Positions 42,588-47,469 of a DNA stretch of 64,000 bases are shown here, one piece after another (the first letter of the stretch is position 1; every line of letters starts with the position of its first letter). The stretch comes from Caulobacter henricii (GTDB taxonomy: Bacteria > Pseudomonadota > Alphaproteobacteria > Caulobacterales > Caulobacteraceae), in assembly GCF_001414055.1 (NCBI RefSeq), contig NZ_CP013002.1:2914001-2978000 (forward strand). The letters are read 5' to 3'. A program made the position numbers and the translations under genes. Below the pieces are notes generated by a model. That model did no database searches and was not told the DNA's origin. It was given only the letters and a program-made list of their open reading frames with translations.

Positions 42588-44477
42588 ATGCGCTTCGACG
42601 ACCGCTTCCTTGAAGAACTGAAGTCCCGCCTTCGCCCCTCCGACGTGATCGGAAAGTCGGTGAAGCTGCGGCGGCAGGGGCGCGAATATGCGGGTCTGTC
42701 GCCCTTCACCAAGGAGAAGAGCCCCTCGTTCTTCGTCAATGACGACAAGGGTTTTTATCACTGCTTCTCCAGCGGCAAGCACGGCGACATCATCAGTTTC
42801 CTGCAGGAAACCGAACGCCTGACCTTCAGCGAGGCCATCGAGCGTCTGGCCTCGGAAGCCGGCATGGCCCTGCCCGAGCCCGATGCCCGCGCTGCCCAGG
42901 ACGACCGCAAGCGCCAGGGCCTGGGCGACTGGATGGCGCTGGCCGCTACCTGGTTCGAGGCCGAGCTGCGCCGCCCCGTCGGCCAGGCCGCCCGCGCCTA
43001 TCTGGAACGCCGGGGCCTGCCTGAAGGCGAGTGGAGCCGCTTCCACATCGGCTTTGCGCCCAACAATCGCACTGGCCTGAAGGACTATCTGATCGCCAAG
43101 GGGGCGCAGCCGGGCGACCTGATCGAGGCCGGGGTGCTGATCGCGCCGGAAGACGGCGGCGCGCCCTATGACCGCTTTCGCGACCGGATCATCTTTCCGA
43201 TCACCGACACGTGCGGCAAGGTCGTCTCGTTCGGCGGCCGGGCCATGGATCCCGCGGCCCGGGCCAAGTATCTGAACGGTCCCGAGACCAGCCTCTTCCA
43301 CAAGGGCCGGCTGCTGTACGGGCTCTATGAAGCCCGCAAGATCCTGCACGCCGCCCAGGCCGCCGTCCCAACCGACAACAATCCGCTGGTGGTGGTCGAG
43401 GGCTATATGGACGTCATCGCCTGCCAGAGGGCCGGCGTGGCGGCGGTGGCAGCCATGGGCACGGCCATGACCGAGGAGCAGATGGAGGTGCTGTGGCGCC
43501 TGCACCCCGAGCCCACCCTGTGTTTTGACGGCGACAAGGCCGGCCAGCGGGCCGCCAGCCGGGCCATGGACCGCGCCCTGCCCCTGCTGAAACCCGGCCG
43601 CTCGTTCCGCTTCTCGCTGGTGACCGGCGGCAAGGATCCCGACGATGTCCTGCGCGAGCAGGGCCCTGCGGCGCTCAGGTCTCAGCTGGCCGCAACCACG
43701 CCCTTTGTCGAGCAGCTGTTCAGCCGCGAACGCGATCTGGAGCCGCTCGACACGCCCGAGCGCAAGGCGGGCCTGAAGCAGCGCCTGCGGGCCGCGGCTG
43801 CAACCATCGCCGACAAGGATCTGGCCCAGGCCTATAGGGACGATCTGCTGGGCCGACTGGATGCCCTGTTCCCGCGCGCGGCCTTCACGCCCAATGATGG
43901 CGGCTATGGCGGAGGGCGTCCCTTTGTGCCCCGCGGCCAGTGGAGGGACGGCAAGCGCCTGCCGCCCGATCCCGGCATCCGCGGCGTGGCCCGGGCCCAG
44001 ATCGGCGAGCGGATCAATCCCTTCCACGCCGCCATCGCCTTGGCGGCCATCGACCATCCAGGCTGGGCCCGGCCCTATGACGAGGCCATCGAGCGGGTAG
44101 GCTTTGGCGATCCGCGCCTGCGCCCCCTGGCCCGCGAACTGTTCGAGGCTCTGGTCGACGACATGCACGACGACGCCCCGTTCCGCGACATCCTGGCGCG
44201 CAAGGGCCTGGGTCCGCAGATCGCCGAGGTCGAACGCGTGGCCCAGGCCGACGCCCCCTTCCTCAAGTCCGGCATGGAGCCACACCAGGCCAGGGCCCTG
44301 TGGTCGGCCTGTTATGAAGCGGTGATCGAGGTCGCCAATGCCGAACAGGCCCTCGAAGCCCTGCGGCACGAACCGGTCACCGCCGGCACCCTGACCGCCA
44401 CCCGCGACCTGCGCACCCGCATCACGGTGCTCCAGCGCCGGATCAGCAATCTGGAGTTCTGGCGCGGGGAGAGTTAA
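42588..44477 (+). CDS. dnaG: DNA primase DnaG
   Basis: 629 residues. The N-terminal zinc-finger region keeps its fold residues (KEKSPSFFV, SGKHGDIISFLQ), but three of four zinc ligands are replaced: LSPFT and HCFSSG appear where C-x-x-H and C-x-x-C are usual. The RNA polymerase core has FRDRIIFPI and YLNGPETSLFHK. TOPRIM metal residues are VVVEGYMDV (Glu near 270) and CFDGDKAG (near 311). The C-terminal ~200 residues are the DnaB-binding part. It synthesises replication primers. In many bacteria dnaG lies next to rpoD, as here, with the GIY-YIG cassette inserted between them. Confidence 0.96.
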   Translation: MRFDDRFLEELKSRLRPSDVIGKSVKLRRQGREYAGLSPFTKEKSPSFFVNDDKGFYHCFSSGKHGDIISFLQETERLTFSEAIERLASEAGMALPEPDARAAQDDRKRQGLGDWMALAATWFEAELRRPVGQAARAYLERRGLPEGEWSRFHIGFAPNNRTGLKDYLIAKGAQPGDLIEAGVLIAPEDGGAPYDRFRDRIIFPITDTCGKVVSFGGRAMDPAARAKYLNGPETSLFHKGRLLYGLYEARKILHAAQAAVPTDNNPLVVVEGYMDVIACQRAGVAAVAAMGTAMTEEQMEVLWRLHPEPTLCFDGDKAGQRAASRAMDRALPLLKPGRSFRFSLVTGGKDPDDVLREQGPAALRSQLAATTPFVEQLFSRERDLEPLDTPERKAGLKQRLRAAAATIADKDLAQAYRDDLLGRLDALFPRAAFTPNDGGYGGGRPFVPRGQWRDGKRLPPDPGIRGVARAQIGERINPFHAAIALAAIDHPGWARPYDEAIERVGFGDPRLRPLARELFEALVDDMHDDAPFRDILARKGLGPQIAEVERVAQADAPFLKSGMEPHQARALWSACYEAVIEVANAEQALEALRHEPVTAGTLTATRDLRTRITVLQRRISNLEFWRGES

Positions 44478-44486
44478 ATCCGCTCT

Positions 44487-44602
44487 CCCCGGCGAAGGCC
44501 GGGGCCCAGATCGAACCCAGGGTGGTTGTCGATCAGGCTAAGGCAGTAGGCGCGTCATCCCCAGCCGCTCAGGCTGAATCTAGGTCCCGGCCTTCGCCGA
44601 GA
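44487..44602. repeat. REP-like 116-bp element, copy 1
   Basis: The left unit is the perfect palindrome CCCCGGCGAAGGCCGGGG (44487-44504) followed by CCCAGATCGAACCC. The right unit (44585-44602) is an inverted, slightly decayed copy preceded by CAGGCTGAATC. The element begins ten bases after the dnaG stop. Copy 2 at 44965-45080 is its reverse complement, without gaps and with about 85% identity by eye. Confidence 0.85.
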
Positions 44603-44617
44603 AAATCGGAGGTTGGG

Positions 44618-44902
44618 TTAGCCCAGAAAGTCTTGCGCCAGATCCCGCCAGTCGGGATTACTCTCCTCGATCAGCCGCAGCTTCCACACCCGCCGCCATT
44701 CCTTCATTTGCCGTTCGCGGATCTGGGCGCTCTCCCGCGTCTCATGGAGTTCGCACCAGACCAGCATCGTGCAGCCGTACTTTGCGGTGAAGCCACGCTC
44801 TCTCGACTGATGCTCGAACACCCGCCGCGCGAGGTCGTCGGTATGGCCGATATAGAGCGTGCCGTTGCGCCGGCTGGCCATGATGTAGACATGGAAGGCC
44901 AT
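44618..44902 (-). CDS. GIY-YIG endonuclease-domain protein (UPF0213-like)
   Basis: 94 residues from ATG 44902; a TTG two codons upstream is possible. A single GIY-YIG domain: HVYIMASRRNGTLYIGHTDD holds both tyrosines (VYI and LYIG), then LARRVFEHQ with the catalytic Arg, and ETRESAQIRERQMKEWRR with the metal-binding Glu. Its members are stand-alone nuclease-like proteins. The gene is enclosed by two inverted copies of a 116-bp REP-like element and interrupts the dnaG-rpoD neighbourhood in reverse orientation. Composition is similar to its neighbours, so any insertion is not recent or came from a similar genome. Confidence 0.88.
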   Translation of the reverse strand: MAFHVYIMASRRNGTLYIGHTDDLARRVFEHQSRERGFTAKYGCTMLVWCELHETRESAQIRERQMKEWRRVWKLRLIEESNPDWRDLAQDFLG

Positions 44903-44964
44903 GGGCAAAGTTTAACGAGAGCTTTTCTTCGAATTCAACCTATGGAGCATTATAAATCCGTTTT

Positions 44965-45080
44965 CCCCGGCGAAGGCCGGGGCCCAGATTCAACCTGAGC
45001 GTCTGGGGATGATCCGCCTTCCGCCCTAGCGAAATCGACAACCTCCTCGGGTTCGATCTGGGCCCCGGCCTTCGCCGGGG
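44965..45080. repeat. REP-like 116-bp element, copy 2 (inverted)
   Basis: This copy has perfect CCCCGGCGAAGGCCGGGG (44965-44982) and CCCCGGCCTTCGCCGGGG (45063-45080) ends. Its reverse complement matches copy 1 (44487-44602) over the whole length, including GGTTGTCGAT and TCATCCCCAG in the centre. The two copies point in opposite directions around the GIY-YIG gene, like terminal inverted repeats. Confidence 0.85.
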
Positions 45081-45510
45081 AAAGCGGAAGTAGCGAACCA
45101 GAGATAACCACTACCCCTTGACACCGCCCCCTCGCCCCGCCATTTGCCGACTCAAGGATTTGCCAAGCAGCTGATTGACATCGAGCGGGCCGCCGTCACA
45201 TCGCGCGCGCCCTTACCGAAACAGGATGTCACCCTCGCCGCCGACGTTGGATCCCAGTGGTCGCGGACTCACAAGGTCGTAACGCACAAGGCCGCGCTGA
45301 AGATACCGCCGTCTCTGCCGAGAGCTTTCTCGCGGAGCGATAGTTCGTGGCGGACGTTCAGTGCTGGCGGCATGCGACACTTTGTGGCCGAGATTTTTTT
45401 GGGAAAAGACGAAACGGACGGCGCGGCCCAGGCGGGCAGGACCCTTTCGGATCTAGAATTTTTTCGGCGCGCCTCTCGCGGGGGAGGTCGCGCTGACTGC
45501 GGAGAGCTTG
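45081..45510. other. Leader and promoter region of rpoD
   Basis: 430 bases with no convincing gene. A 134-codon frame (45144-45548) overlaps the rpoD start and has no ribosome site or family features. The stretch carries the candidate promoter listed separately, a TTGACA at 45175-45180 without a clear -10 partner, and a T-rich run at 45395-45401. The start-proximal part holds the rpoD ribosome site GGAG (45501-45504). Confidence 0.45.
45117..45145 (+). promoter_or_regulatory. Candidate heat-shock-type promoter upstream of rpoD
   Basis: CTTGACA (45117-45123), eleven bases, then CCCCGCCATTT (45135-45145) resembles the sigma-32 pattern CTTGAAA-N11-16-CCCCATNT, with two extra bases in the -10 part. 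A sigma-32 promoter for a principal sigma gene is biologically reasonable. It would leave a leader of more than 300 bases. Confidence 0.3.

Positions 45511-47469
<1,959 letters not shown>

Follow-up and report, generated by a model that had tools for sequence, protein, structure and literature searches.

We analysed a 64,000-nucleotide stretch of the Caulobacter henricii genome (hereafter the window). Between dnaG and rpoD lies a small GIY-YIG gene that is bracketed by two inverted repeat elements. The first-pass annotation, made from the sequence letters, had described a stand-alone gene on the strand opposite to both neighbours; the open reading frame and the Pfam match confirmed this. It had also noted two inverted elements of 116 bp. 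These are indeed present, and the 116-bp spans are the cores of elements of 132 bp each, which are ungapped reverse complements (86% complementary) separated by 346 bp. Each element consists of two GC-rich hairpins in opposite orientation with heads outward and tails inward, confirming the proposed palindrome pairs: three of the four hairpin cores carry a perfect CCCGGCGAAGGCCGGG, and the fourth (44586-44601) has a single mismatch. The coordinates are collected in Table 1.

Table 1. Features of the dnaG-rpoD locus, in window positions
Feature	Positions	Strand	Basis or remark
dnaG	42588-44477	+	upstream neighbour of cassette
Whole cassette (repeat pair, GIY-YIG gene, repeat pair)	44479..45088	.	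610 bp; inverted arms; homology with second own-genome copy stops at outer tips
Left REPIN-like element, two REP hairpins, heads outward	44479..44610	+	sequence, arm alignment, pattern match
REP hairpin core CCCCGGCGAAGGCCGGGG	44487..44504	+	sequence and pattern match
REP hairpin core, 1 mismatch	44586..44601	-	pattern match
GIY-YIG nuclease gene, 96 aa, TTG start 44908, ATG alternative 44902	44618..44908	-	ORF, Pfam PF01541, predicted fold, catalytic residues
Right REPIN-like element, inverted copy of left element	44957..45088	-	arm alignment; single-stranded DNA fold
REP hairpin core, exact	44966..44981	+	pattern match
REP hairpin core, exact	45064..45079	-	pattern match
rpoD	45508-47469	+	downstream neighbour of cassette

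The window hairpins have a GAAG loop, a CCCAG tail and a CCCCGGC stem, and their heads read TCCGCTCT or TCCGTTTT. Folded as single-stranded DNA, the right element formed one long hairpin (z -8.76), and the left element folded more weakly (z -3.50). The left element begins two bases past the dnaG stop codon. A chance repeat was ruled out by two counts: the core pattern matched four times in the window versus 0.31 expected (0 of 100 shuffles reached four), and the 16-base hairpin core has 63 exact copies in the own Caulobacter genome versus none for the reversed pattern, used as control. Separately, relatives strongly conserve the stretch at 45110-45250 (TTGACACC and the bases that follow), which precedes rpoD. 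It is probably the rpoD promoter region, with the cassette just upstream.

The window protein is a small, single-domain GIY-YIG protein (Pfam PF01541, E 2.3e-14; predicted fold with pLDDT 92.7) that keeps all the catalytic residues (Y8, Y19, R29, H33, E65 and N84). The structural neighbours of the predicted fold were, in order, stand-alone UPF0213 GIY-YIG proteins, then Slx1, a nuclease acting on branched DNA, and the UvrC N-terminal domain. The nearest solved structures are UPF0213-type proteins (PDB 1zg2 and 1ywl), which have the same single-domain fold and are 27% identical to the window protein in the structural match. The dN/dS of the protein is 0.04-0.23, and thus it evolves under purifying selection. 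Catalytic residues are retained in nearly all family members, repeat-flanked or not, including about 30 homologues that have no repeat nearby. Some 25 homologues form a repeat-less branch (L097, L242, L249, L250, L252-L255, L260, L261, L264-L267 and others), in which the host possibly took the protein over for another task. We discarded a defence-system protein, as PADLOC gave no convincing match (best E 0.018), and a phage origin, as a search of phage records gave no match.

Repeats around the gene family and their dispersal

We scored inverted repeats that bracket the gene at a distance of up to 250 bp in alphaproteobacterial homologues, and used shifted windows in the same loci as controls. 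Such a repeat was found at 54 of 80 homologues versus 1 of 426 control windows. Under a strict hairpin definition, 95 of 195 loci were flanked by hairpins on both sides and a further 71 on one, versus 0 and 36 of 531 control windows; the outermost pair points its heads outward in 60 of the 95 doubly flanked loci. The clustering of repeats around GIY-YIG genes, which the first-pass annotation had proposed to look for, thus proved to be a very strong excess. Bracketed members span several alphaproteobacterial orders and make up about half to two thirds of the family (control windows, 0 to 0.2%). In the same genomes, GIY-YIG genes that are more distantly related (L304-L313) showed no bracketing by REPs of the GNNN, ACAAG or TTTAT loop classes. 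Several decayed gene copies are still bracketed. In genomes with a cognate-flanked gene, that hairpin is present in higher copy number (p 2e-4 and 2e-8). Twelve genomes are hairpin-rich although no matching gene flanked by hairpins was seen in them; repeats can therefore sometimes persist without such a gene.

The own genome holds about 26 near full-length copies of the element and many single hairpins; the scattered hairpin pairs of ∼130 bp look like a gene-less form of the cassette. It has four GIY-YIG matches, one of which is the window gene. The closest paralogue is 79% identical to the window protein and is bracketed likewise. Of the other two, one (L033) has an ACAAG-loop hairpin on one side, and the other (L034) has a TTTAT-class hairpin on both sides, with a CGTC head found around it. 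Three protein clades with three hairpin classes therefore coexist in this genome. Around two loci (L003 and L026), the ∼100 bp to the right of the repeat pair ('..GGAAAGATCACTCAAGGACGACGC..') belong to a second dispersed sequence family, with many matches in the seven relatives searched (query about 142-262).

We compared copies of the cassette with one another and with orthologous sites in relatives. Between the two own-genome cassettes, 628 bases align; the alignment stops at the outer tips of the repeats, and the flanks beyond are unrelated. The shared sequence of a copy pair in a second genome (G029) likewise stops at the outer tips; in a third (G053) it breaks off sharply on the left and continues ∼80 bp past the repeat on the right. 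Most dnaG-rpoD intervals that could be read in relatives lack the cassette; three hold a hairpin pair only, and some a single hairpin. In the two genomes closest by rpoD (G006 and G039), no dnaG was found beside rpoD in the stretch read. One relative (G018) has hairpin-gene-hairpin in this interval, with a protein 68% identical to the window protein. The proteins nearest to the window protein (86%) sit at another locus in other genomes; thus, the window protein has closer relatives than the G018 copy at the same place. Own-genome repeat pairs also vary in presence and absence at orthologous sites in relatives. A short target-site duplication, as expected of an insertion sequence or a MITE with a DDE transposase, has one ambiguous candidate: a filled/empty comparison gave CCATCA on both sides, but the same bases are the neighbours' start and stop codons. 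Copies of the cassette occupy many unrelated sites, and 43 same-genus loci have no syntenic partner. A GIY-YIG homing endonuclease, which would be copied into empty alleles of one conserved site, does not fit the many unrelated sites.

Homology that ends at the outer repeat tips, together with dnaG-rpoD intervals that are empty or repeat-only in most readable relatives, indicates that the unit disperses as a cassette. The earlier proposal of a mini-element with terminal inverted repeats is supported by the paralogues at unrelated sites; the earlier question whether relatives lack the cassette between dnaG and rpoD is answered by those intervals for most of the relatives that could be read.

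Matching of protein clade and hairpin class

We wondered whether the kind of hairpin follows the kind of protein. Hairpins were sorted into the three loop classes and further into stem subclasses. In 88 of 89 labelled genes from the genus, the loop class agreed with that of the closest protein from a different genome; when loop classes were shuffled within genomes, the match averaged 55 and reached at most 74 of 89. This within-genome shuffling rules out that the matching reflects one repeat type per genome. Removal of syntenic neighbours (those with shared outer flanks) left 86 of 89 matches, versus a maximum of 72 in 1000 within-genome shuffles, and stem subclasses treated in the same way matched in 69 of 89 (maximum 50 in shuffles). 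Vertical inheritance of whole loci is ruled out as well because the match persists without syntenic neighbours. Thus, gene and repeat stay together while changing place. From this matching, the strongest though indirect evidence, we infer that the protein recognises its repeat.

Known systems and wider distribution

The first-pass annotation had likened the unit to REP elements served by RAYT transposases. A RAYT (TnpA-REP) gene is a single gene flanked by inverted REPs, and gene-less REP pairs, or REPINs, are dispersed in the genome (PMC2817692, PMC3116915). The analogy holds for the anatomy, since a gene between inverted REPs and dispersed REP pairs are common to both, and fails for the enzyme: RAYT is a Y1 (HUH) tyrosine transposase, whereas the window protein is GIY-YIG only, by profile and by fold. 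REP heads of the RAYT systems are also of the GTAG type, unlike those of the window.

A further likeness is found in the CGTC-tagged REPs, which have loops of 4 or 5 bases and a tail of the CCA type, are common in alpha-Proteobacteria and seem, according to a 2013 survey that counted Neisseria dRS3 as CGTC-1, to have no dedicated transposase (PMC3733652). The window hairpins share such a loop and tail (GAAG, CCCAG) but lack the CGTC head. The GIY-YIG family is likely the partner of this repeat class, for which the 2013 survey gave no dedicated enzyme. A full-text literature search for GIY-YIG combined with REP or RAYT returned no paper drawing this link.

A dRS3-like core was present in 66 of 398 sampled Proteobacteria. 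A strong GIY-YIG homologue was found in 15 of 20 genomes with the core versus 3 of 20 without it (Fisher p 3e-4, a guide only, as these genomes were hand-picked). In several of the 15, dRS3 hairpins adjoin the gene. None of the 398 genomes was recognisable as Neisseria, and the Neisseria loci came from chromosome-sized records in a plasmid collection: the N. gonorrhoeae records NZ_CP119140.1 and NZ_CP119142.1 (∼2.17 Mb each) are listed as plasmids and look like chromosomes. The Neisseria gonorrhoeae homologue is 58% identical over 90 residues and lies within a dRS3 core array, with a CGTC head around the gene; its record holds 108 exact dRS3 cores.

We take this homologue to be Ssn. Ssn and NTS are site-specific single-strand nucleases and their repeats; Ssn is reported (Chenal et al., Nat Commun 2025) to cut the NTS repeat as single-stranded DNA and to affect transformation. 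The first-pass annotation was aware of no settled mechanism that joins GIY-YIG proteins to REP spread, but the idea has a precedent: a link between GIY-YIG and dispersed palindromes is reported for Ssn/NTS, and the homologous Neisseria locus sits in a dRS3 array. Both systems have a gene of the same protein family among dispersed palindromes. The Caulobacter cassette differs in its stem sequence, in the inverted pairs that flank its gene on either side and in the three protein/hairpin pairs within one genome; its protein may likewise cut site-specifically. The window cassette most likely adds one more system to the Ssn kind. The evidence that the cassette disperses as a whole, and that several protein/hairpin pairs coexist, may extend the known work on Ssn.

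A probable two-part repeat element and its alternatives

Bracketing, clade-class matching, joint dispersal, empty sites and purifying selection were all observed. They are probably best explained by a two-part repeat element, made of an Ssn-kind GIY-YIG nuclease and of REP hairpins that the nuclease recognises, with hairpin-gene-hairpin as the full form and the pairs of ∼130 bp as the gene-less form. In such an element, the window protein would cleave the repeat and the nuclease would have a role in its spread. The REP would fold when the DNA is single-stranded (on the lagging strand, during repair or DNA uptake), and the nuclease would nick the folded REP at a fixed place. GIY-YIG enzymes hydrolyse DNA without a covalent intermediate, so that the joining must come from host repair or recombination; now and then, these would place a copy of the repeat or of the cassette at a new site. 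Any mechanism must allow for repeat-rich genomes without a flanked gene and for the repeat-less branch of the family.

Those same features favour another account, in which the nuclease recognises the repeats without moving them: it would act on incoming or repair single strands, tuning uptake and recombination, the role reportedly held by Neisseria Ssn, while repeats and gene would spread by homologous recombination between repeats. Purifying selection, the intact catalytic residues of the repeat-less branch, a fold without strand-joining chemistry and the rich repeat sets of genomes without the gene all fit this account, which we regard as less probable but of real weight. However, copies found at unrelated places are homologous up to the repeat tips and no further, and the match of gene to hairpin class holds across non-syntenic sites. 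Recombination between repeats, moreover, explains how a cassette enters a repeat but not how repeats reach empty sites.

The repeats might instead be spread by an unrelated enzyme, with the GIY-YIG gene a chance passenger between two copies. The abundance of repeats in some genomes without a flanked gene would agree with this. Yet the frequency of bracketing in the family relative to control windows, the tracking of protein clade by hairpin class and the unbracketed distant GIY-YIG genes of the same genomes argue against it; control windows and clade matching led us to reject a passenger gene, which we hold to be very improbable. We give equally little credence to the idea that the hairpins here are mainly dnaG transcription terminators into which the cassette was accidentally inserted. 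The position of the left element just behind dnaG speaks for it, as does one hairpin or hairpin pair at the same place in several relatives, but many relatives have no hairpin there and the genome carries some 26 near full-length copies of the same elements. A terminator role could coexist with the two-part element, yet it leaves the link to the nuclease unexplained.

If the two-part element is taken further, REP-bracketed GIY-YIG cassettes would be self-spreading elements that use a nuclease without strand joining, the missing mobilising partner of CGTC/dRS3 REPs in Proteobacteria, with lock-and-key nuclease/hairpin pairs in one genome; we put this at slightly under an even chance. The data now tie CGTC-type REPs to a single family of small nucleases, with clade-class matching that holds across unrelated sites. 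What spreads these REPs thereby becomes a directly testable question in a well-studied bacterial genus, which offers natural sets of nucleases with presumably different hairpin specificities in one cell.

Two plasmid loci outside Caulobacter also carry the gene. On Sinorhizobium meliloti pSymB (L364, 1100-1900), a GIY-YIG gene between hflX and mazG is bracketed by GCGCCGCGTCTGCGGCGC palindromes; here, the protein family is paired with a further class of repeat. On the Azospirillum lipoferum plasmid AZO_p3 (L365), a GIY-YIG gene with CGTC-type hairpins lies inside the suf cluster, between sufB and sufC.
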